Shown one piece after another: positions 7,833 to 27,887 of a stretch of 38,203 bases of DNA. Within the stretch, counting starts at the first letter, position 1. Every line of letters begins with the position of its first letter. The position numbers were made by a program, and so were the translations under genes. A model generated the notes under the pieces. It searched no databases, was not told the DNA's origin, and saw only the letters and a program-made list of their open reading frames with translations. The stretch is taken from NCBI GenBank assembly GCA_027858955.1, contig JAQIBR010000224.1:1-38203 (forward strand). The letters run 5' to 3'. The stretch comes from Bacteroidales bacterium (GTDB taxonomy: Bacteria > Bacteroidota > Bacteroidia > Bacteroidales > UBA12170).

Positions 7833-9020
7833 ATGAGCGAAACGGAGGTTGGGAAAATATTATATATCGGGAAAAACCCGGATGTCATAGAGCAGCTTAG
7901 TAAAGCAAGAAACATAAAGTTAAGATGCAAGGATAACGGCATTGCTGCAATTCATTGGATCAGTGATAATATTGAAGAGTACGATAAATTGGATGCCGTT
8001 TTATGCTCACTCGGAGTGAAAGGAATGAATGCATTTTCGTTATACAATCATATGAGGCTTCGAAATCTCTTAAACAGGATTCCGTTTATTGTAATTGCTC
8101 AAAGCTTTGAATTTGATTCGCGTGCATTGGCACGATATCACAATGTGGACGACTATTATGCTCTGCCTTTGGATATTGAGCGCCTTGAAACAAGAGTAGA
8201 ATTTCTTAAAAAATACAAAGCAGAATATCTTGCATTAGACCTGAAAAAAACTTTCGAAAAATATAAGAATCAACCCTATAAAACACCATTCTTAAAACGC
8301 ACTTTCGATATATTAATGTCCGGCGGAGCAATACTTGTTTTGTCACCTATTTTACTTTTCACCGCATTAGCAATTCGCTTAGAATCAAAAGGAAAAGTAT
8401 TTTATTCTTCGAGGCGAGTAGGTGCAAATTTTCACGAATTTGATTTCTATAAATTTAGATCGATGTATCCAGATGCTGAAAAACGCTTAAAAGAAGTCGA
8501 GCATCTTAATCAATATCAGAAAAATACTGTTGGCGATGAATGTCCAAGGTGCAGACATCTCCCTGAAGATTTATACTGTTCTGCAGTTCTTAAACAGGAT
8601 GATAATACAGAGATTTGCGAATATTTCTATTTTAAAAGGAAAAATGCCAAAGCGGCATTTCTTAAAATTGAAAACGATCCACGAATTACTAAAGTCGGCA
8701 AGTTTATTCGAAATAAAAGCATAGATGAATTACCTCAACTTTTTAATATTTTGATAGGCGATATGTCGATTGTTGGAAATCGTCCACTACCTGTTAGCGA
8801 AGCTACAGCAATTACTAAATCGCGCTGGTCGCGAAGATTTGAGACAGCAGCCGGTTTAACTGGTTTGTGGCAGGTTGAACTTCGCGGCAAAGACGGGGAA
8901 ATGTCTGAAGAAGAACGTTTTGAACTTGATAATAAATACGCTAAAATTAATTCATTTTGGGGCGACATAATTCTTATTTTGCGCACATTAAAAATATTCA
9001 TCCAAAAAGGAAGCGTATGA
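7833..9020 (+). CDS. initiating sugar-phosphate transferase fused to a degenerate receiver domain
   Basis: Residues 1-135 follow the receiver pattern, but the phosphoacceptor position is S59 (LDAVLCSLGVKGMNAF) and the conserved Lys is lost (DDYYALPLD), so this is a pseudo-receiver. From about residue 150 the protein is a bacterial sugar transferase (WcaJ/WbaP/PglC core): TPFLKRTFDILMSGG membrane hairpin, FYKFRSMYPDAE, KVGKFIRNKSIDELPQLFNI, GDMSIVGNRPLP and GLTGLWQV. Such enzymes attach a sugar phosphate to undecaprenyl phosphate at the inner membrane and start a glycan. An insert between FRSM and the KVGK block carries four cysteines (C237, C240, C249, C262), which may bind metal. The TGA overlaps the next ATG. 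Confidence 0.92.
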   Translation: MSETEVGKILYIGKNPDVIEQLSKARNIKLRCKDNGIAAIHWISDNIEEYDKLDAVLCSLGVKGMNAFSLYNHMRLRNLLNRIPFIVIAQSFEFDSRALARYHNVDDYYALPLDIERLETRVEFLKKYKAEYLALDLKKTFEKYKNQPYKTPFLKRTFDILMSGGAILVLSPILLFTALAIRLESKGKVFYSSRRVGANFHEFDFYKFRSMYPDAEKRLKEVEHLNQYQKNTVGDECPRCRHLPEDLYCSAVLKQDDNTEICEYFYFKRKNAKAAFLKIENDPRITKVGKFIRNKSIDELPQLFNILIGDMSIVGNRPLPVSEATAITKSRWSRRFETAAGLTGLWQVELRGKDGEMSEEERFELDNKYAKINSFWGDIILILRTLKIFIQKGSV

Positions 9021-9859
9021 ATCGATTGTTATTTTTTAAATTTGTGCAAACTATTAAATTTATGCCAAAGTCTACAAAGAAACTATCCAGCTTTGTCAGC
9101 AAACAACTATCTTTTATATTGCTGATATTCATTATATTCTCCTTAAACCTGAATTCTCAAGAAATCAGTGTGTCTAACGAAAACGTTTTCAACCCTCTAA
9201 CAGATGATATCACCAAAAAAATTCCTCCTTTGGATGTTCTAATTGATTCCGCACTTATCAATTCGCACCGATTAAAATATTGGGATAAAGAAATTAAAAT
9301 TACAGAATATGAATTGAAATCGGTAAAGCGCGAATGGTCTGATGGCATTTTCTTTCAAGGCGAAGTAAAAGAAGGCACTTGGACAAGTTTGGTTTTTGTT
9401 CAAGACCAATATGGAAATGAAATAGGTACACTTGGCACCACTGATCAGGGGAGGTATTCAATTGGACTTGGGATGAGACTACCTCTATTGAGTCTTTTAG
9501 ATAGAGGAAATAGAATCAAGCTCGGCAAAATGAAGATTGAAAGAAATATTGAGAATATGCTTGAAGATCGTCAGGCTATTAGAGCCAATGTTATTAATTT
9601 ATTTAATGAGCTTTTGATTCAACAAAACATGTTGAAACTTGATATCGACAATATTGAATTTTCAGAACTTACTGCAGAAATGGCTGACAGGGAATTCCAG
9701 AATGGAAAAATTTCTCTTGGCGATTTATCACTAATTCGAGACCATTTGAATATTGCAAGATACCGATATGTTGATAGTAAAACCAGCTTCATTAAAGCAT
9801 ATGTTATGCTACAAGAGTTAACAGGTATTCAATTCAACGAACTTAATAATTGGGAATAA
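9017..9859 (+). CDS. short TolC-family outer membrane protein
   Basis: The ATG at 9017 overlaps the previous stop (ATGA) and has AAAAAGGAAG just upstream; the track's 8957 start lies inside the preceding gene. A long basic N-terminus precedes a hydrophobic signal segment (FILLIFIIFSLNLNSQ); a later ATG at 9062 is also possible. The mature part has TolC-like helical regions (DVLIDSALINSHRLKYWDKE; IRANVINLFNELLIQQNML; FQNGKISLGDLSLIRDHL). At 280 residues it is well short of a normal TolC (about 430-500), with one helical repeat rather than two. By context it may serve as, or help form, the outer-membrane exit for the polysaccharide. Confidence 0.75.
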   Translation: MNRLLFFKFVQTIKFMPKSTKKLSSFVSKQLSFILLIFIIFSLNLNSQEISVSNENVFNPLTDDITKKIPPLDVLIDSALINSHRLKYWDKEIKITEYELKSVKREWSDGIFFQGEVKEGTWTSLVFVQDQYGNEIGTLGTTDQGRYSIGLGMRLPLLSLLDRGNRIKLGKMKIERNIENMLEDRQAIRANVINLFNELLIQQNMLKLDIDNIEFSELTAEMADREFQNGKISLGDLSLIRDHLNIARYRYVDSKTSFIKAYVMLQELTGIQFNELNNWE

Positions 9860-19949: not shown

Positions 19950-19989
19950 AGTCCGAAATGTTAAGCGCATTTCGGACTTTCTATTTTTT
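19950..19989 (+). terminator. rho-independent terminator after the DUF5916 gene
   Basis: AGTCCGAAATG (19950-19960) pairs perfectly over 11 bases with CATTTCGGACT (19968-19978) around a 7-base loop, followed by TTCTATTTTTT. It closes the + strand transcript at the left edge of the accessory island. Confidence 0.88.
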
Positions 19990-20020
19990 CCTGCTTATAA
20001 GAATGATTTTTTGAAAAACT

Positions 20021-20098
20021 CAGGCTAAAGTTTATTTTTCTACTAAGTGAAGACAATGTCTCAGACGAAACTTAAACTGAAATTAGTCTGAGTAGAGT
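20021..20098 (+). repeat. diverged island repeat, copy 0
   Basis: Begins CTCAGGCTAAAG and ends CTGAAATTAGTCTGAGTAG. It resembles the better copies at 20904 and 21890 (CTGACCTAATCT..AGATTAGGCCGAGCGAG) but is the most diverged. It contains its own inverted repeat, CTCAGAC..GTCTGAG. It lies just past the 3' end of the higBA pair. Confidence 0.45.
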
Positions 20099-20110
20099 TC
20101 ATCTTTTATT

Positions 20111-20431
20111 TTAAACTATCGATACGCTATTCAATTCTATGTTGAAATTTATTTTTGCACCTAATGCTCTGAAAACTTTCAAAATTGTCTCAAAACGTGC
20201 ATCTGTTAGATTATTTTCAATCTTAGATATTTGAGCTTTTTTCACGCCTACCATTTTCCCAAGTTGTTCTTGAGTTAAATGCTTTTCTTCTCTTATTTTT
20301 TTTATAGTATAACCTAAAATATCAAGTCGCAATTCTTGCTCAAAATAATTCCGATCTTCAGTTCCTACAACGCCAACATGTTCGTCAATCATATCATCCA
20401 AACTTTTTCTTCTTTTTTTTTCGCTTTTCAT
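20111..20431 (-). CDS. HigA-like antitoxin, XRE helix-turn-helix
   Basis: A 106-residue protein with a Cro/cI-type helix-turn-helix at about residues 38-80 (IKKIREEKHLTQEQLGKMVG, KKAQISKIENN). As the second gene after a RelE/HigB-like toxin with a 4-base ATGA overlap, it fits the HigBA layout, in which the toxin gene comes first. The antitoxin should bind the toxin and repress the operon through the palindrome at 20783-20798. Confidence 0.88.
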   Translation of the reverse strand: MKSEKKRRKSLDDMIDEHVGVVGTEDRNYFEQELRLDILGYTIKKIREEKHLTQEQLGKMVGVKKAQISKIENNLTDARFETILKVFRALGAKINFNIELNSVSIV

Positions 20432-20775
20432 TTCTCTTCGTTTTTTTGTTCGAAATAAATTTTCCGAATTCCATCGGCTTTTTTAATCTCGCTTTTCAAT
20501 GTTTTTTTGGTCTTCTTAATAATTCCGTGAGTTGCTATTACTAACGTTTCTTCTTTATCACTCTTATCCCAAAAGGCAAAGAGTCGATAATATTTTTTAT
20601 CATATAGCGTCCGAAACTCCCAAATAAAATCTGTTAGTTTCTTGAATAATTCCGGGTCATTTATCATTTGGGACTTTCTTATGTTATAATAAATCTTTCG
20701 ACGAGTTTTTGAATCAAGAGAGTCCATAAAACTTATTGCTTCATCCAAAAAATCCACATCAAATTTTTCATTCAT
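20428..20775 (-). CDS. HigB/RelE-like (Gp49 family) toxin
   Basis: The track start (20802) lies within the promoter, so I use the Met at 20775 (MNEKFDVDFL), giving 115 residues. The pattern IWEFRTLYDKKYYRLFAFWD followed by LVIATHGIIKKTKKT and a basic, Lys-rich C-terminus matches the phage-derived Gp49/HigB group of the RelE superfamily, which cleaves mRNA on the ribosome. No break is seen, and the basic and aromatic residues of the core are present. It is the first gene of a two-gene operon with the antitoxin. It can be taken as an intact module. Confidence 0.87.
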   Translation of the reverse strand: MNEKFDVDFLDEAISFMDSLDSKTRRKIYYNIRKSQMINDPELFKKLTDFIWEFRTLYDKKYYRLFAFWDKSDKEETLVIATHGIIKKTKKTLKSEIKKADGIRKIYFEQKNEEK

Positions 20776-20782
20776 ACAAATA

Positions 20783-20798
20783 ATCTTTGTACAAAGAT
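20783..20798 (-). promoter_or_regulatory. palindromic operator of the higBA operon
   Basis: ATCTTTGTACAAAGAT is a perfect 16-base palindrome. It overlaps the -7 element and lies 7 bases before the toxin ATG, exactly where antitoxin autorepression is expected. Confidence 0.72.
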
Positions 20799-20822
20799 AC
20801 AAGTTTCTTTTTCAGGAAACAA
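20792..20822 (-). promoter_or_regulatory. higBA promoter, TTG-N20-TATCTTTG
   Basis: On the - strand, TTG (20822-20820) is followed after 20 bases by TATCTTTG (20799-20792). This fits the Bacteroidota consensus and places transcription start a few bases before the ATG at 20775. It also argues against the ORF-track start at 20802. Confidence 0.7.
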
Positions 20823-20903
20823 GTAAGTCCGCAATTTTAATTTTATTCGTTAAGAACTTGAAGCTTTTGACTAAGGGATTACTACAGCTTACATTATATT
20901 TCG

Positions 20904-21017
20904 CTCAGGCTAAGCTTAATCTCCGATTAAGATTTAATTAATCTGTGGTCTCCTGACCACTTCTTTGTAAGATACTAAATTTTACATCTGACCTAATCTG
21001 GAGATTAGGCCGAGCGA
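20904..21017 (+). repeat. island repeat, copy 1 (with terminal inverted repeats)
   Basis: Starts TCGCTCAGGCTAA and ends TTAGGCCGAGCGAG, so the two ends are imperfect inverted repeats of about 13 bases. Inside are two small hairpins, GTGGTCTCCTGACCAC and CCTAATCTGGAGATTAGG. Related copies lie at 21041, 21890 and 24429. Confidence 0.6.
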
Positions 21018-21040
21018 GGGATTAAGCTTTTTTATTTAAC

Positions 21041-21125
21041 GTTCTCCTGACCGTTTATTAGTCAGATAAGAAAATTATATACGACTTAATCCATCTCTTC
21101 CGCCAACTGATGTAAGTCTATGTCT
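21041..21125 (+). repeat. island repeat, copy 2
   Basis: GTTCTCCTGACCGTTTATTAG..TTATATACGACTTAATC parallels copy 1 (GGTCTCCTGACCAC..) and copy 4 (AATTATATACGAACTAATCTGC). It lacks the clear AGATTAGGC end and is followed directly by the 3' end of the second antitoxin gene. Confidence 0.5.
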
Positions 21126-21149
21126 GATCTTTGAGAAAGTGTGATTTAT

Positions 21150-21467
21150 TTACAAAAAAGTTAATCCAATTCTTCTTCCGAGTCCTGTTTCAAAAATTCT
21201 AATTAATGTAGAGAGATTAATATTTCCTTTAGCATTTTCAAGTTTTGAAATATAACTTTTCTTTGTTCCTGCTTTTTCCGCAAGTTGTTCTTGAGTCATA
21301 TTAGCTTCTCCTCGTGCTTGTTTCAACATTTCACTTATTATAAACATATGTGATTTTTCTTCAAATACATTTCTTTTTTGAGTCCCAATTTCCCCATACT
21401 TCATATTTAGAAGCTCGTCAAAATCTGATATTCCTTTATAATCTTCCATTTCGTTCATTCTTTTCAT
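21150..21467 (-). CDS. XRE-family antitoxin of a second, broken toxin-antitoxin pair
   Basis: A 105-residue protein with a helix-turn-helix at about residues 47-85 (ISEMLKQARGEANMTQEQLA, TKKSYISKLENAKGN). The start overlaps the end of the toxin frame by about 30 bases; Met4 or Met7 would shorten the overlap. The upstream toxin frame carries an internal TGA, so this antitoxin seems to have lost its partner. It may still repress through the inverted repeat at 21798-21815 or counter related toxins. The frame itself is intact. Confidence 0.85.
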   Translation of the reverse strand: MKRMNEMEDYKGISDFDELLNMKYGEIGTQKRNVFEEKSHMFIISEMLKQARGEANMTQEQLAEKAGTKKSYISKLENAKGNINLSTLIRIFETGLGRRIGLTFL

Positions 21468-21789
21468 TAAAATATTCTTTTTTTAGCTTTTCAGCTAATT
21501 CTATTTCTTTTTTTGGTGTCTTTTGTGATTTCTTCTGAAATCCATTATAAAGCACAATTAACCTTCCTTCATCGAAAAAACAGAAAATTCGATAAATATT
21601 TGATTGATTTTCAATTCTTATTTCATAAAGACCATCAGTTGATTTTATATGAGTGAAAAATTTCTTTGAAATTCAATCTGTTAGTTTAATTAACTTCAAA
21701 ACAAATTCAATCTTTTCCTGAACCTTTTTATTCTGTGAAGAATAAAAGTCTGTGAAGTGGTCTTTATAAAATTCAATTTTTCTAATCAC
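21436..21789 (-). pseudogene. HigB/RelE-like toxin with in-frame stop
   Basis: Reading from a GTG at 21789, the frame gives VIRKIEFYKDHFTDFYSSQN and so on to codon 38, then TGA (21675-21673), then continues ISKKFFTHIKSTDGLYEIRI, YRIFCFFDEGRLIVLYNGFQ and KKSQKTPKKEIE to TAA at 21436. The second half is a textbook Gp49/HigB core (GLYEIR, FRIFCFFDEG, NGFQKK..TPKKEIE). A single nonsense codon thus splits an otherwise normal 117-codon toxin gene. It is absent from the ORF track because both halves are short. A sequencing error or read-through cannot be ruled out. Confidence 0.8.
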
Positions 21790-21793
21790 TCGG

Positions 21794-21824
21794 CAAAGTT
21801 ATCATAAAAGATAACATTATTCAA
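21794..21824 (-). promoter_or_regulatory. promoter of the second toxin-antitoxin module, TTG-N20-TAACTTTG
   Basis: On the - strand TTG (21824-21822) is followed after 20 bases by TAACTTTG (21801-21794), just before the GTG start at 21789. Same spacing and arrangement as the intact higBA promoter. Confidence 0.65.
21798..21815 (-). promoter_or_regulatory. inverted-repeat operator of the second module
   Basis: GTTATC-TTTTAT-GATAAC is a perfect 6-6-6 inverted repeat between the -33 and -7 elements, overlapping the latter. It is a likely binding site for the surviving antitoxin. Confidence 0.6.
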
Positions 21825-21889
21825 GTTTTTTTCTTTTTTTTATGGCTAGGGGGTTTCAAAAGCTTGGCTATATCTCTGATTAAAATTTA

Positions 21890-21968
21890 TATAGTGGTTG
21901 TCTGCCCGTTTTATTAGTCTAAGACTAATTCTTATTTCTGACCTAATCTGAGATTAGGCCGAGCGAGC
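21890..21968 (+). repeat. island repeat, copy 3, abutting a truncated helicase
   Basis: CTGACCTAATCTGAGATTAGGCCGAGCGAG here is almost identical to the end of copy 1. The GCTCGCTCGGCC end (read on -) directly follows the point where the helicase remnant loses homology, so the repeat marks the truncation border. Confidence 0.6.
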
Positions 21969-22119
21969 GGATTTACCCGAAGCTAGTGGATGCTTTATCA
22001 ATAAATACTGAGTATCTTTATATTCAAAAGCACATTCTTGCATTTCGCGCAACCCATTAAGGATTGGTGTTTTTGCTCGACTCTGTTTGTTGGTATTGCA
22101 CCTTTACTACATCCGGCAT
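21960..22119 (-). pseudogene. N-terminal remnant of a DEAD/DEAH-type helicase
   Basis: An ATG at 22119, one base after the rhuM stop, opens a frame MPDVVKVQYQQTESSK that is frameshifted within an A5 run. In the +1 frame it continues TPILNGLREMQECAFEYKDT and QYLLIKHPLASGKSARSA, then stops. By memory this matches the start of large Bacteroidota superfamily 2 helicases (..QYLLIKAPPASGKSRA..), with ASGKS as the Walker A. Homology ends at GKS, exactly where repeat copy 3 begins. The rest of the helicase is not in the window. The gene was probably the third member of an operon with yhcG and rhuM. Confidence 0.65.
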
Positions 22120-22120
22120 A

Positions 22121-23158
22121 TTACTTTCTCTTTATCTTTTTTTCTATGTGTTTCATTTCACGGTCAAAATCAGAGATGTATCTTTCATCCTGAATAACTC
22201 TAAATTTATCATATTCGCTTTCGGCTTTTAGTTTTGCTTCGAGTATCGAGATTTTGCCTTTGTTCATCAGTATTGGAAAATTTGTAAGTTCTAAAAATTG
22301 GACTAAAAACCCTTCCCAATCCTTCATATTCATCACTTTGCGATTTGTCGCTCTATTTTCTGCTAAATCAAGATATGATGTTACAATCCTTTGCAGCATT
22401 TTCAAATGTTCTTCATTCAGATAATTTTTAGCAATTGTTACATCGCTCTTCAATATTTTACCATCGGGTGTTTGCTTCCAGATTTTTAAACCCATATAGA
22501 TTTTTGCAGCATCCGCTTCAGAATAGATTATCTCGGCAGCTGTTTTTCCCGTTATCGCCCAATGAAGTTTGTTTTGAACTGTAGAAAAAAACTGTTTGGT
22601 AATATCTGCCTTGCTATCATAATCTGCCGACAAAGCATAAATATCTGTAATCTTTTGATAAACTCTTCTTTCACTCATACGAATTTCACGAATTCGTTCA
22701 AGCATTTCATCAAAATAATCTATTCCAAAATGTCTTATTTGTTTTAGCCGCTCATCATCCATTGCAAAACCTTTGATGATATACTCGTGCAGTATTTCTG
22801 TTGCCCATTTTCTAAATTCTATTGCCCTGTGTGAATTTACACGATAACCTACTGCCGTAATGGCTCGTAAATTGTAATGCTTTGTAGTGTAGGTTTTGCC
22901 ATCTTCGGCAGTATGTCGGAAATCCCGACATACTGAATTCTCCTTTAATTCACTATCAGCAAAAATCTTTTTTAGATGCTCTGTTATGGTCGAACGACCT
23001 TTTTCAAACAATTCAGCAATTAGTTTTTGTGTTAGCCAAAGGGTTTCGTCTTGAAAATATACATCAATATTAACTTTGCCATTGTTGGTTTGAAAGATTA
23101 CAAAGTTTGAAAACTGTTGTAATTCAGAGTTGCTATATGCTTTTTTATTGTCGCTCAT
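22121..23158 (-). CDS. rhuM: RhuM family protein (Fic/DOC-like, island-associated)
   Basis: The Met at 23158 (MSDNKKAYSN) is chosen over the track start 23209 because an AAAAAAGAG ribosome-binding-like sequence precedes it; this gives 345 residues. The N-terminal part is typical of the virulence RhuM family: LWLTQKLIAELFEKGRSTIT, HLKKIFADSEL, KTYTTKHYNLRAITAVGYRV and RAIEFRKWATEIL. Its role is poorly known; members are found in pathogenicity and defence islands, often beside restriction systems. It follows the yhcG gene by about 140 bases, with a helicase remnant one base after its stop. Confidence 0.88.
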   Translation of the reverse strand: MSDNKKAYSNSELQQFSNFVIFQTNNGKVNIDVYFQDETLWLTQKLIAELFEKGRSTITEHLKKIFADSELKENSVCRDFRHTAEDGKTYTTKHYNLRAITAVGYRVNSHRAIEFRKWATEILHEYIIKGFAMDDERLKQIRHFGIDYFDEMLERIREIRMSERRVYQKITDIYALSADYDSKADITKQFFSTVQNKLHWAITGKTAAEIIYSEADAAKIYMGLKIWKQTPDGKILKSDVTIAKNYLNEEHLKMLQRIVTSYLDLAENRATNRKVMNMKDWEGFLVQFLELTNFPILMNKGKISILEAKLKAESEYDKFRVIQDERYISDFDREMKHIEKKIKRK

Positions 23159-23298
23159 CTCTTTTTTTTCTAGTATTTTTTGCTTCATCAAACAAAGTAT
23201 GCTGCTCATTTTATTCTGCTATCATTTTGAGCTTTATATTTTTAGAAAGGCTGATTTGACTAGGTGTTCGTATTTTGCATGACGAACTAAATTGTTGT

Positions 23299-24339
23299 CT
23301 ACCATAGTTTCTTTGTTTCTAAGCGTTTTCTTTCTATTTCAATAACTTTATGCAGTTTCTTTTGCAATATTTCTTTTGATGGTAATTCCAATAAATATTC
23401 TGCTATTCTTATTCCTGATTTATCAAGTTGCAATAATTCAATTTGCTCTTTTGAACCAGCGGCACATAAAATTAGTCCAATTGGTGATTCTTCACTTTTT
23501 TCGGTTTCAAATTTTTCAAGATAACGAAGGTATAGCTCCATTTGACCTTTATACTGTGCTTTGAACCTGTCTAATTTTAAATCAATTGCAACTAAACGTT
23601 TAAGTTTTCGATGGTAAAACAGTAAATCAAGTTTAAAACTATCTCCATCAATCAACATTCGTTTTTGTCTTTCAACGAATGTGAAACCTTGACCTAATTC
23701 AAGAATGAATTTTTCAAGTTCCCTTAAAATGGCATCTTCTAATGTCTTTTCGCTATATATATCTTCTAATCCAAGAAAGTTGAGAAAATAAGGATCACGA
23801 AAAACCAGATCTGGTGAAAGTGTGTTTTCTTCTTTTAACAATTTAATTTCATTCTTAATTAATTCTTTCGGTTTTTTTGAGATTGCTGTTCGCTCAAAAA
23901 GCATAGATTCAATTTTTTTATCCAAAGTTCTGGTGTTCCAGTTTTCAAGCTTTGTCATCTCAATATAAAAATCTCGTCGGAGATCATCTTTCAAATACAT
24001 AATTGAACGAAAATGCGTCCAGCTTAATTGTCTACTCAGTGCGTAGAGAATTTCTTTGTCTGGAAAAGTCTCCGCAATGCGTAGACAATGTCTTAATTGC
24101 TTTTCACTCCATCCTATTCCATATTCTTCAGTAAGACTTTGTGAAATTGATTTTACAACCTCTTTGCCATACTCAGCACGTTTATTACTAAGAATCTCTT
24201 TTTTTATGCGATCACCTATATTCCAATAAAGAACTGTTGTGGCGGCATTAACAGTAACCGCTACAGCTTGCTTTGCTTCTTCAATCAGCTGTTTAATTTC
24301 TGAGAAAAGATTGATTGTATTTTGGGGATTATTTACCAT
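23299..24339 (-). CDS. YhcG/DUF1016 family PDDEXK nuclease
   Basis: The Met at 24339 (MVNNPQNTIN) is preferred to 24360, because the -7 element at 24369-24362 would place the transcript start after 24360. The 346 residues show the DUF1016 N-terminal domain (VLYWNIGDRIKKEIL, EYGIGWSEKQLRHCLRIAET, LSWTHFRSIM) and the C-terminal PDDEXK domain (FKLDLLFYHRKLKRLVAIDL, KLDRFKAQYKGQMELYLRYL). The acidic residues and Lys of the nuclease core are present. Family members occur next to restriction-modification genes and in defence islands; the exact role is not settled. No methyltransferase is found nearby. Confidence 0.9.
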   Translation of the reverse strand: MVNNPQNTINLFSEIKQLIEEAKQAVAVTVNAATTVLYWNIGDRIKKEILSNKRAEYGKEVVKSISQSLTEEYGIGWSEKQLRHCLRIAETFPDKEILYALSRQLSWTHFRSIMYLKDDLRRDFYIEMTKLENWNTRTLDKKIESMLFERTAISKKPKELIKNEIKLLKEENTLSPDLVFRDPYFLNFLGLEDIYSEKTLEDAILRELEKFILELGQGFTFVERQKRMLIDGDSFKLDLLFYHRKLKRLVAIDLKLDRFKAQYKGQMELYLRYLEKFETEKSEESPIGLILCAAGSKEQIELLQLDKSGIRIAEYLLELPSKEILQKKLHKVIEIERKRLETKKLW

Positions 24340-24361
24340 AAATTTATCTTTATAGTACAAA

Positions 24362-24390
24362 CAAATTTATCTACAATTTCAATATTACAA
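24362..24390 (-). promoter_or_regulatory. candidate promoter for the yhcG-rhuM unit
   Basis: On the - strand TAAATTTG (24369-24362) fits TAnnTTTG, with a TTG (24390-24388) 18 bases upstream. It leaves a short leader before the ATG at 24339. Confidence 0.5.
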
Positions 24391-24428
24391 ATCTTCTTAT
24401 TTATTTTCGTCCATTATTCTTCTTGCTA

Positions 24429-24515
24429 TTGGCCGTTTTTTTTCGTCAGAGATGAATAATTATATACGAACTAATCTGCATCTCCGCCTACTAGTTGAAG
24501 ATTAGGCCAAGCGAG
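24429..24515 (+). repeat. island repeat, copy 4
   Basis: AATTATATACGAACTAATCTGC..AGATTAGGCCAAGCGAG resembles the end of copies 1 and 3 (AGATTAGGCCGAGCGAG) and the middle of copy 2 (AAATTATATACGACTTAATC). It lies between the yhcG promoter and the 3' end of the next gene unit. Confidence 0.55.
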
Positions 24516-24559
24516 AACACGAATTTCGCTATTGCAATTATCATTGTAATCAACTTGCC

Positions 24560-26404
24560 TTACTTACTTAACGCCTTTAAAATTCGTTCTTCGTTTATAA
24601 CTATATCTCGGAATAAAACATGTGGAAATTCTTTATATTTAGACGTTTTAAATGCATTATATATTTTCGAAAGAGTTGAAGCTGTAAGAAGAGATAAATT
24701 CATTTCTGTATCCATTTCACAGTCATAAACAAAATCATCACTAAATTCAGGTGCTATAAGCAATATTTTGACAATTCTCATATCATTTTTAAGTGCTAAA
24801 TTTTGATAAGATTTCAGTTGTCTTGAAACGGTACTGAATTTATTGTAACCTTTTTCCTTGCTAGTTTTACATTCAACAATGATTATTTCATTATTTCCTA
24901 AATTCAAAAGAATATCCATCATATCCTTTTGAGTGTTCAGATGATTTTTAAACTTATCGTCAACGTTAAACCCTAAACCTTTGAAAATCACTTTGGTCAG
25001 TTTCTCAAATTTTAAACCTAGTTCACTTTCTTTTATTGAAATTCCATTTTCTTTTAATAGATTTAAATTACGATAAGCAACATTTTCGTAATTCTCTAAG
25101 TATAAATTTTCAACGTCTTTGTAATGGTCGAGAATATTTAAAATATCATCTCCACGCTGCTTAATACCATTGTCTTTTATAAAATTGGATATATCGGGTT
25201 TAGTAATTAAATCTAAAATATCTCGAGGCTTTATGTTGTAATCAAGTAGAAAGCTTGCATTTAAGACGTATTCGTCTTGTAACTCGAATTGTTCTTTTAA
25301 TTCCTTATTTAGTTTCGGTAAGGATTCATTAAGTTCTAATAACATTTTTTCAAAACCATCTAATGATATTCCAACTTTTTCATCTTTTTCAACATTTTCA
25401 AAATGTTCGATTAGGCTGTTAATTTTATCTTCTAGCGTACTTCCTTTTAAGTTTTGAATATTCAGTCCTTTTTCACAAAGTTCATTAAGTGTTTTTTTCT
25501 TTTCAGATAGTGTTAATCCATCTTTGTAAATGTCATTCGAAAGTAAGCCCGTAAAAGAGATGCCTTCGTTGATTATTTCCTCAACTTTTTGTGAAGCACT
25601 TAATTTTCTATCAATATTATGGTTCTTGGCGATTTGATTAATTATTGGTTCTCTCAATAATTTTAATGTTCGTCTATAAAATTTTTCAGCAACTTCTTTT
25701 TCTCTTACTTTTCTTAACAACCTTACCATTTCATCAGCCACATAAATTGTGTTTTCTTTTTTTGAATAGAACACTACACCAAGATTTTTCAAGTTGTTAA
25801 TAACATCTTGTATATCAGCTTTTTTGATTGGTAAAATAGAGTAATTTATTAGCTTAACTTCTTCTTGAGATAAACCAAGTTGTTTTGATAGGGTTAATAT
25901 TATTGATAATTCGTCAGAAGTTATTTTTGCTTCTCTATTATTCGAAATATCATTGTTATAAGCTGTTGATAAGCAAGATTTATATATTCGGTAATCCCTT
26001 TTTCTCGATTCACTTAATTCCGATTTTTCGTTCTCCAATTCAGTATTCAGAGTTTTGATTTTGGCCTTCAATTTTTTAATTTCACTTTCATATAATCTTG
26101 AAAACCAATCTTGTTTCATAATGGAGTTTCCATCACGAATTATAATATCAATTAGAATGTCTACTTGCGAATTAGCCTCTTGAAATTCGCACATTATATG
26201 TTTAGTAAATCCACTTGAAGTTAAATTGAAAATATTGGATACGTTTTGATTATCGACTGATTTAAGTCCTTTGTCAGAAGAACTTAAAATTTTCTCAATT
26301 TCCTTTGCGTTTTTAGGACTTTTTGAAATGATGTTGTCGATGATTTTAATAAATGCGTTTTTCTCGATTGAGCCGAGTTTATCTAATATTTTTTCTAATT
26401 TCAT
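24560..26404 (-). CDS. uncharacterised 614-residue protein with C-terminal PDDEXK-like nuclease domain
   Basis: No family was recognised for the whole protein. Residues about 100-130 form a charged coiled coil (KKLKAKIKTLNTELENEKSE). Residues about 150-240 look helical and may include a winged-helix-like element (DIQDVINNLKNLGVVFYSKK). The middle is helical and repetitive (GISFTGLL, DGLTLSEKK, KGLNIQNLK, GISLDGFE). The C-terminal part matches a restriction-endonuclease fold: E467 in LKFEKLTKVIFKGLGF, D497 in DMMDILLNLG, and E511-x-K513 in EIIIVECKTSKEKG, then a Gln-containing helix (FSTVSRQLKSYQNLALK). With YhcG, RhuM and toxin-antitoxin neighbours, a DNA-targeting defence role is a reasonable inference. 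Confidence 0.7.
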   Translation of the reverse strand: MKLEKILDKLGSIEKNAFIKIIDNIISKSPKNAKEIEKILSSSDKGLKSVDNQNVSNIFNLTSSGFTKHIMCEFQEANSQVDILIDIIIRDGNSIMKQDWFSRLYESEIKKLKAKIKTLNTELENEKSELSESRKRDYRIYKSCLSTAYNNDISNNREAKITSDELSIILTLSKQLGLSQEEVKLINYSILPIKKADIQDVINNLKNLGVVFYSKKENTIYVADEMVRLLRKVREKEVAEKFYRRTLKLLREPIINQIAKNHNIDRKLSASQKVEEIINEGISFTGLLSNDIYKDGLTLSEKKKTLNELCEKGLNIQNLKGSTLEDKINSLIEHFENVEKDEKVGISLDGFEKMLLELNESLPKLNKELKEQFELQDEYVLNASFLLDYNIKPRDILDLITKPDISNFIKDNGIKQRGDDILNILDHYKDVENLYLENYENVAYRNLNLLKENGISIKESELGLKFEKLTKVIFKGLGFNVDDKFKNHLNTQKDMMDILLNLGNNEIIIVECKTSKEKGYNKFSTVSRQLKSYQNLALKNDMRIVKILLIAPEFSDDFVYDCEMDTEMNLSLLTASTLSKIYNAFKTSKYKEFPHVLFRDIVINEERILKALSK

Positions 26405-26497
26405 ACATATAGCTTTTAAGTTCAGTTATTTTTTTTAGCTTGTTGACAACTGTTTGAATATGGTACGTTTGGCATTTTGGAACGCTTCATTTTCAAG

Positions 26498-26655
26498 TTA
26501 CGCATAATTACGTTTATTGCCAATATCTTCATTTTTAATATTATTTGTTAAATGCCCAATATTTTTTGTTGCTTCTTCTGTTTTGGATATTGACTTTTGA
26601 TGTAGCAACTTGATCCGCTAACTCTTTTACTTTGTACTTCCAACGTGTTTGTTAT
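26498..26655 (-). pseudogene. frameshifted coding remnant downstream of the ion channel gene
   Basis: On the - strand, overlapping the end of the channel gene in another frame, one reads QTRWKYKVKELADQVATSKV and NIQ. After a one-base shift in an A run the frame continues TEEATKNIGHLTNNIKNEDI to a TAA at 26500-26498. The charged helical pattern looks like real coding sequence. The source gene is unknown; it could be a lost small gene or the tail of something deleted. Confidence 0.3.
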
Positions 26656-27421
26656 TCTGAGTTATTAATTCTGTTATTTTCTTTTCAATATTGTCAATTT
26701 TTTGCTCTAATTCATCATTGTTGTCACTTACCATGGCATCAACAAAAATAGAGTTAACTAAAGAAAGCCCAAATATGCCACCGGTTAGAAGAATAAATAT
26801 GAAATAAATGTAAGTTAAAAATGCTGAAATTGATGAGTATCCTATTGTTATTTGTTCAGGAATTTCAAACCAGCCTTCAACTGTAAATATTTTAAAAATT
26901 GAGTAAAGTGACGTCAATGGATTGCTAAAATATTCAGGGGCACTTGATTTAAAAAGATAAAAAGACAAAATTCCTATTATAAAAATATAAACAGCAAATC
27001 CGGCTAGTACAATGATTGATGTTTTTAATGCTCTTTGTATTCCTTTGAGTAAATGTTCTACGCCTGGAATAAATTTTAAAAATCTGAATGATTTAAAAAC
27101 ACGCATAACTCTAAACACTAGTAAAAAACTAATGTTTGTTATTTCAAGGTCCATAATAAATGAAATTAAGGCAGGAACTGAAAGAGCAATTAACGTTAAG
27201 TCAAATATATTCCAGCTCGACGAAAAATATTTTTTAAACCCATATTCATAAAGTTTTACAGTCAACTCAGCAATGAATAGTCCAGTGATGATATTATCAA
27301 ATACTCGGAATAGGAATTTATTTGATGCTGTCAATTCAAATCCACTTATAAATATTATTACTGCGTTCAGCAGAATTAATATCAAAATATTCTTGTCGTT
27401 TAGAAACAGTTTTTTAATCAT
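26627..27421 (-). CDS. voltage-gated sodium channel-like ion transporter (NavBac family)
   Basis: A 264-residue single-domain six-helix channel. The S4 voltage sensor carries regularly spaced Arg/Lys (VFRVMRVFKSFRFLKF), the S4-S5 linker is followed by S5, and the pore loop reads IFKIFTVEGWFEIPEQ, close to the T(L/V)ExW filter of bacterial sodium channels. After S6 the cytoplasmic tail forms a short coiled coil (ELEQKIDNIEKKITELITQN), the known tetramer-assembly element of this family. It should sit in the inner membrane and pass sodium (or calcium) on depolarisation. It shares the island's - strand orientation; any link to defence is unproven. Confidence 0.9.
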   Translation of the reverse strand: MIKKLFLNDKNILILILLNAVIIFISGFELTASNKFLFRVFDNIITGLFIAELTVKLYEYGFKKYFSSSWNIFDLTLIALSVPALISFIMDLEITNISFLLVFRVMRVFKSFRFLKFIPGVEHLLKGIQRALKTSIIVLAGFAVYIFIIGILSFYLFKSSAPEYFSNPLTSLYSIFKIFTVEGWFEIPEQITIGYSSISAFLTYIYFIFILLTGGIFGLSLVNSIFVDAMVSDNNDELEQKIDNIEKKITELITQNNKHVGSTK

Positions 27422-27887
27422 TTGTCATTTCTTTTCTTGTTTTTCTTTGCCTTGTCCTAATGGTACAATATGTATCGTTTTTATGTATTTTTTCTACCAT
27501 TTAACAAGTCCTTTAAGGAAATGTTAGAGTAAAGTTTCAACCCTCCCCACAATCTAAACTAATTCTCATTGCTTTTCTCCATTGTACTATCTGTAAAGCA
27601 ATTGTTTATACCCTCAAATATAAGATTATTTATTTTATAAAGACTTTTATTCCTGCACAGTTTTAATTTGGGTAAGCAAGGAAGTTTTCCTAATTCGGAA
27701 TTCTATTTTTATTAACACTCCTTTCCTCTAATACCGATTATCAATTAATTGCGCCTTTTGTTCGCTTACCTCTCCAAATGGTCAGACTAAGCTTCAAAAG
27801 CCACATTAATTGTATATCGGCATTAACCATTGTAAATTTTAAAATGATTTTTAAGCACATTTTAAAATACAATTAGTATAAGATTCT
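27422..27887. other. gene-free stretch at the right border of the accessory island
   Basis: About 470 bases with no supported gene on either strand; the 84-residue frame in the track lacks family signs. TGGTCAGACTAAGCTT near 27778-27795 faintly resembles the CTCAGGCTAAGCTT end of island repeat copy 1 and may be a decayed copy. No terminator, tRNA or transposase end was seen. Confidence 0.5.

Follow-up and report, generated by a model that had tools for sequence, protein, structure and literature searches.

The stretch of DNA analysed here (hereafter, the window) comprises 38,203 nucleotides from a Bacteroidales bacterium and contains an accessory island between the DUF5916 and DUF4268 genes (Table 1). 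In another genome of the same genus (G009), these two genes are adjacent and the site is continuous and empty; the insertion at this site in the window is 7.7 kb long. The island is bounded by an imperfect direct repeat of ~17 bp (TTTCGGACTTTCTATTTTT / TTCGGAATTCTATTTTT, window positions 19968–19988 and 27690–27708). The repeat sits at the terminator that follows the DUF5916 gene, and a further insert of ~150 bp separates it from DUF4268. Two toxin-antitoxin loci (20111–21789), genes for RhuM and YhcG, the gene of a 614-residue predicted nuclease, and an ion-channel-like gene make up the island content. The toxin-antitoxin, RhuM, and YhcG neighbours had been named in the initial annotation, and Pfam and PADLOC searches together with translation recovered all of them; the upstream ion-channel gene, the discrete nature of the insertion, and one broken toxin ORF had been missed. 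The broken ORF is a RelE/HigB-like toxin frame (21439–21789, minus strand) interrupted by an in-frame stop codon, downstream of which lies an intact HTH antitoxin gene (21150–21467); judging from the reading frames, this second toxin-antitoxin pair (21150–21789) looks decayed. A voltage-gated-channel-like Ion_trans protein adjoins the nuclease gene in four loci (the window, L021, L024, and L119), with 50–68% identity between the homologues; its gene is upstream of the nuclease gene in the window, but in the other three loci it lies downstream.

Several island genes are followed by a palindromic repeated element, with copies at 24439–24515, 21911–21967, and about 20961–21018 (within 20890–21022). 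The genome (G000) has just five exact copies of the core, TCGCTYGGCCTAATCT: three within the window and the others at C22:20779 (L177) and C194:7017 (L178). The element is preceded by a RhuM gene twice, in the window and at L178. One copy, taken as single-stranded DNA, folds far better than shuffled sequences (z −5.2), and the element may be MITE-like or cassette-site-like.

Table 1. Features of the island and of the 614-residue protein encoded in it (window coordinates).
Feature	Position	Strand	Evidence
Accessory island between DUF5916 and DUF4268 genes	19989..27708		Empty site in same-genus genome G009 (L134)
Gp49/HigB-type toxin and HTH antitoxin pair	20111..20802	-	Pfam
RhuM family protein (PADLOC PDC-S05)	22121..23209	-	Pfam/PADLOC
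YhcG/DUF1016 PDDEXK protein (PADLOC PDC-S02)	23299..24360	-	Pfam/PADLOC
Palindromic repeated element, copy just downstream of the 614-aa gene	24439..24515	-	Repeated core, five exact copies in the genome
614-aa protein gene, predicted stand-alone PDDEXK nuclease	24560..26404	-	95 full-length homologues, dN/dS 0.03–0.09
Predicted C-terminal PDDEXK (Mrr-like) nuclease domain, residues 453–614	24563..25048	-	AlphaFold2 topology; hhalign to Mrr_cat
Q529 codon, SRQ motif on helix after ExK strand	24818..24820	-	Invariant 95/95
E511-C512-K513 codons, ExK motif	24866..24874	-	E511 and K513 invariant 95/95; aligned with Mrr_cat QxK
D497 codon, predicted catalytic Asp of PD-(D/E)XK	24914..24916	-	Invariant 95/95; aligned with Mrr_cat Asp
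E467 codon, first-helix glutamate, KFE motif	25004..25006	-	Invariant 95/95; aligned with Mrr_cat FE
All-helical middle region, residues 241–452	25049..25684	-	Structure models
Winged-helix domain, residues 193–240	25685..25828	-	H198–208, E212–214, E219–221, H224–233 in the model
Invariant block Y141..N151-D152..K160..D164-E165	25910..25984	-	Y141, N151, D152, D164, E165 invariant 95/95
Ion_trans channel-like protein, upstream of the 614-aa gene	26627..27421	-	Pfam

The nuclease ORF, for which no strand had been given initially, is real and lies on the minus strand with an ATG start; stop codons throughout rule out a plus-strand reading. It is far beyond chance expectation, since more than 90 genomes encode full-length homologues of almost exactly 614 amino acids with low dN/dS values and invariant catalytic residues. 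In line with the initial statement that the protein matched no familiar family, none in Pfam, NCBIfam, or PADLOC covers it. The PADLOC 2.0 defence-family HMMs gave no match at E 0.1, and neither the protein nor its profile found a significant sequence match among solved structures. A PHROG family, phrog_34709, matches the protein over its full length (614 positions, E 4e-105) and represents the same family; this entry is annotated only as of unknown function.

An AlphaFold2 model built from a 34-row alignment has pLDDT 86 and pTM 0.75, with the C-terminal blocks at 82–95. In the nuclease domain, helix 459–476 is followed by strands 498–503 and 506–512, helix 523–539, and strand 543–551, so that E467 falls on a helix, D497 and E511–K513 on strands, and Q529 on the helix preceding the last strand. 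The model and the Foldseek matches thus display the alpha-beta-beta-beta-alpha-beta core of the PD-(D/E)XK superfamily, with its acidic residue and (D/E)xK motif on adjacent strands (D497, E511, and K513). Alignment by hhalign to a Mrr_cat profile, made of sequences drawn from Bacteroidota genomes, gave 78% probability (P 1.8e-5) with the catalytic residues in register: E467, D497, and E511/K513 fall on the FE, D, and QxK of Mrr. Control alignments (Mrr with the front half, TerB with the nuclease domain) yielded 0.1–1%. In Pfam searches, the window protein stays below the gathering score of Mrr_cat (PF04471), with no hit at E 0.1; the model hits 8 of 24 family members weakly (best E 0.003), and several members show weak Mrr_cat, PDDEXK_10, or NERD hits.

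Foldseek comparison of the full-length model to the PDB, the structural check proposed initially, placed restriction enzymes first. The top match is the nicking enzyme N.BspD6I (E 2.8e-4, probability 1.00), and the second is FokI (E 4e-3, probability 0.97), both aligned over the full length; the RPB5 subunit, EndoMS/NucS, and MspJI follow. TM-scores to N.BspD6I and FokI are ~0.2, and therefore the claim is limited to a resemblance in domain arrangement and nuclease fold. A Foldseek search of the viral library returned nothing at E 0.001. By these models, the C-terminal domain almost certainly has the PDDEXK nuclease fold, as initially proposed from E467, D497, E511, and K513, all of which carry the numbers originally assigned to them.

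In the N-terminal half, a long helix is predicted at 98–124 and a winged helix at 198–233, the latter bearing out an early remark on a winged-helix-like region; a weak Pfam hit to TrmB (residues 190–223) overlaps it. The block at 141–165 may constitute a second functional site, given its invariance. In hhalign comparison to TerB (PF05099), just a 29-residue motif aligns (58–77% probability), in the conserved 158–186 region, and we treat this TerB-like motif as a lead only. No recognised fold was found in the structure models for the all-helical middle region. The half is not net basic. Modelled alone, residues 1–445 have pLDDT 83 and no significant Foldseek match among solved structures, FokI and N.BspD6I included. 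As regards the D1-D2-D3 recognition domains of FokI-type enzymes, the full-length model does match N.BspD6I, but a FokI-like recognition fold is unsupported in the search with the N-terminal half by itself.

A scan of the genome collection identified 78 loci encoding close relatives of the protein, mostly full length and mostly at 72–88% identity. In one Bacteroidota family, 25 of 297 genomes were added by profile searches, with full-length homologues at 51–79% identity, and Pseudoalteromonas homologues (33–34% identity) are found on large plasmids and prophages. The alignment used for conservation analysis holds 95 homologues with identity down to 33%, and 75 of them are exactly 614 residues long. 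E467, D497, E511, and K513 are invariant in all 95, as are R528, Q529, and Y533; in the front half, G92, N93, Y141, N151, D152, D164, and E165 show no variation. Homologue pairs with low synonymous divergence have dN/dS of 0.04–0.09, and pairs with larger synonymous divergence, for which dS is less reliable, 0.03–0.07. Judged from these comparisons, the protein is functional and under strong constraint. Such values are unusual for genes engaged in an arms race, and a housekeeping-like function on DNA would fit them too.

The gene is rare (2/396 genomes of the phylum, 25/297 in the one family) and patchily present within genera. The window protein is 81–87% identical to its Flavobacteriaceae homologues (86–87% for those from Polaribacter, Galbibacter, and Flavobacteriaceae MAR_2010_72), compared with 74–76% for RpoB of the same genomes. 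RpoB served as the yardstick of cross-order divergence; transaldolase was discarded for this purpose as not orthologous in Flavobacteriaceae. In a single-gene tree (FastTree, SH-like support), the window sequence falls inside a set of 16 rows that come from several other families (support 99), and not with the 81% copy (L049/L080) or the 56% copy (L081) that the same-genus genome G004 carries. Synonymous divergence between the window sequence and these relatives is saturated, and therefore the transfer is established by the RpoB comparison and the tree, and is not dated as recent. On this sequence evidence we regard transfer of the gene between orders as established.

Most copies are chromosomal. 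Among 2.9 million viral contigs, three carry the gene: a Polaribacter prophage (L085), the flanks of which are identical to those of locus L006, and two Pseudoalteromonas prophages (L086, L087). It sits after the tail genes in the latter two and between gene blocks in the former. There, the nuclease gene (8091–9814) comes after two others, one for a small membrane protein and one for a protein with a metallo-beta-lactamase fold, and the three are possibly a cargo module. No homologue was found in reference phages. The distribution suggests that small islands and prophages carry the gene from one bacterium to another, mostly among marine hosts.

Another setting is cassette-like. Direct repeats in the same orientation flank the gene in 13 of 89 loci; of 362 other genes at these loci, 6 are flanked in this way (odds ratio 10, p 3e-6). 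In Flavobacteriaceae loci L033 and L036 (also L004, L009, L018, L039, and L064), the homologue occurs within runs of co-oriented single genes, several of which have a related repeat of 50–100 nt after them. In two Winogradskyella species, the run lies beyond the same amine-oxidase gene. These arrays have an integron-like layout, yet no integrase adjoins them; an integron explanation was rejected, as the divergent gene at the start of the array in Winogradskyella is the amine oxidase.

The nuclease has no conserved operon partner: no neighbour cluster recurs in more than seven of approximately 80 loci, and any upstream gene in the same orientation is at least 60 nt away. On both counts, it is an independent gene. 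A methyltransferase motif scan of linked genes only, covering 1641 genes of 101 loci, gave seven hits; Pfam confirmed one DNA methyltransferase among them, seen twice (L006/L085), a prophage gene located 10 genes away. The scan did recover this known prophage enzyme. As no linked methyltransferase was found by the motif scan, a restriction-modification pair was rejected, and the stand-alone arrangement agrees with that of type IV enzymes.

The initial annotation had called the setting typical of defence systems and had suggested surveying the neighbourhoods of homologues for defence-gene enrichment. Carriage on prophages and the island in the window do fit a defence gene, but the family-wide survey does not extend this. 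In homologous loci, PADLOC hits to the 137 directly adjoining genes are single and scattered over 94 models (e.g., reverse transcriptase, PtuB, and a type IIG enzyme), compared with 43 models in the distal control, mostly generic enzymes; these figures count models hit, not members, and defence genes next to homologues are not clearly above the control. Given its mobility, its modelled fold, and the window's own island, the 614-residue protein is probably a defence gene.

Among known systems, type IV Mrr enzymes share with it the PDDEXK core, the first-helix FE, the Asp, and the (E/Q)xK in register, as well as a winged helix N-terminal to the nuclease and a stand-alone gene. In contrast to Mrr, which usually has QxK, the present protein has ExK and a much longer N-terminal half with its unmatched all-helical region, and most family sequences stay below the Pfam cut-off of Mrr_cat. 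The type IIS enzymes FokI and N.BspD6I have a helical/winged-helix DNA-binding front, a C-terminal PDDEXK domain, and a similar total length, but sequence similarity to them is undetectable, and the cognate DNA methyltransferase expected alongside such enzymes did not turn up in the motif scan of linked genes. Winged-helix fusion endonucleases (DpnI, FcyTI, Psp4BI, HhiV4I; PMC11037411) are likewise stand-alone nucleases with a winged helix and a rarely adjoining methyltransferase; they are smaller, and their published PDDEXK members have the order PDDEXK-wH, whereas here the winged helix comes first. YhcG/DUF1016 is a PDDEXK nuclease of the same island belonging to a separate Pfam family, and the protein has no YhcG hit. 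The family is thus new and unnamed, yet of a kind already known, namely solitary nucleases of the restriction type, from which its front half stands out as unusual.

Our preferred reading, to which we assign a probability of roughly 0.45, is a restriction nuclease of Mrr/FokI-like type that stands alone, probably depends on DNA modification (type IV-like), and serves as a mobile single-gene defence. The C-terminal domain, with its Mrr-like ExK form, would cut DNA, which is strongly suggested by the model and the invariant residues; the N-terminal 445 residues, i.e., the winged helix and the all-helical remainder, would recognise DNA or sense a trigger and control the nuclease. Because the gene travels alone, with no methyltransferase protecting the host, the nuclease would most likely cut only DNA bearing marks absent from the host, much as Mrr, MspJI, DpnI, the winged-helix fusion nucleases, and other type IV or type IIM enzymes do. 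Its target would be modified phage or foreign DNA, and it would spread as a single-gene accessory module in small islands, repeat-flanked cassettes, and prophages. Dependence on DNA modification, argued by analogy, has in itself slightly less than an even chance. In a survey of more than 1,000 winged-helix nucleases, 87% had no methyltransferase within three genes; those standing alone without a neighbouring methyltransferase behave as type IV enzymes, and purified ones preferred DNA with methyladenine (PMC11037411). On the strength of that survey, a type IV-like enzyme is therefore the likeliest explanation and an abortive nuclease the next.

In abortive infection, the N-terminal half would sense a phage protein, a nucleotide signal, or a DNA structure, and the PDDEXK domain would then attack the DNA of both phage and host, so that the infected cell dies or stops growing. 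The missing protective methyltransferase, the 141–165 site as a potential sensor, prophage carriage, and the toxin-antitoxin genes beside it in the window all suit this reading, but no known sensor domain was recognised by Pfam, NCBIfam, PADLOC, or Foldseek of residues 1–445, and the restriction-enzyme-like architecture favours direct recognition of DNA; we consider it unlikely, if a serious competitor. Somewhat less probable still is a DNA-repair, recombination, or mobile-element nuclease, acting for instance on branched or damaged DNA and carried as cargo without an immune role. The strong constraint, the structural similarity to the repair nucleases EndoMS/NucS, the neighbours without a shown enrichment in defence genes, and the direct repeats at 13 of 89 loci speak for such an activity, whereas very patchy presence and between-order transfer do not fit repair, and no conserved transposase or recombinase accompanies the gene.

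The prophage copies raise yet another explanation, namely a superinfection-exclusion or lysogenic-conversion gene later captured by chromosomes and possibly acting on RNA or other substrates. Its moron-like position in all three prophages and the full-length PHROG family point this way; with just three viral contigs of 2.9 million carrying the gene, none among reference phages, and most copies chromosomal, we rate this as improbable. Lowest of all we place an ordinary type II enzyme (FokI/N.BspD6I-like type IIS) with its methyltransferase encoded elsewhere: it draws on the full-length Foldseek matches, but approximately 100 loci have no linked methyltransferase, single-gene transfer without one is expected to be lethal to new hosts, and residues 1–445 taken by themselves show no FokI match.

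A further-reaching version of the solitary restriction-type nuclease deserves mention, though we hold it doubtful: stand-alone immune nucleases of a new class, whose Mrr-like nuclease would be licensed by a highly conserved and so far undescribed N-terminal sensor (the invariant 141–165 block, the winged helix, and the all-helical region). This class would have spread as an integrase-less, repeat-flanked cassette across Bacteroidota and into Gammaproteobacteria.

The analysis defines a widely transferred, uncatalogued family of solitary restriction-type nucleases that the Pfam, NCBIfam, and PADLOC models miss. Its repeat-flanked cassette setting hints that single accessory genes of Bacteroidota travel by a route still to be explained. 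As the whole system would be one gene of 1.8 kb, it is directly testable, and the N-terminal half of the protein may read DNA modification or infection in a new way.
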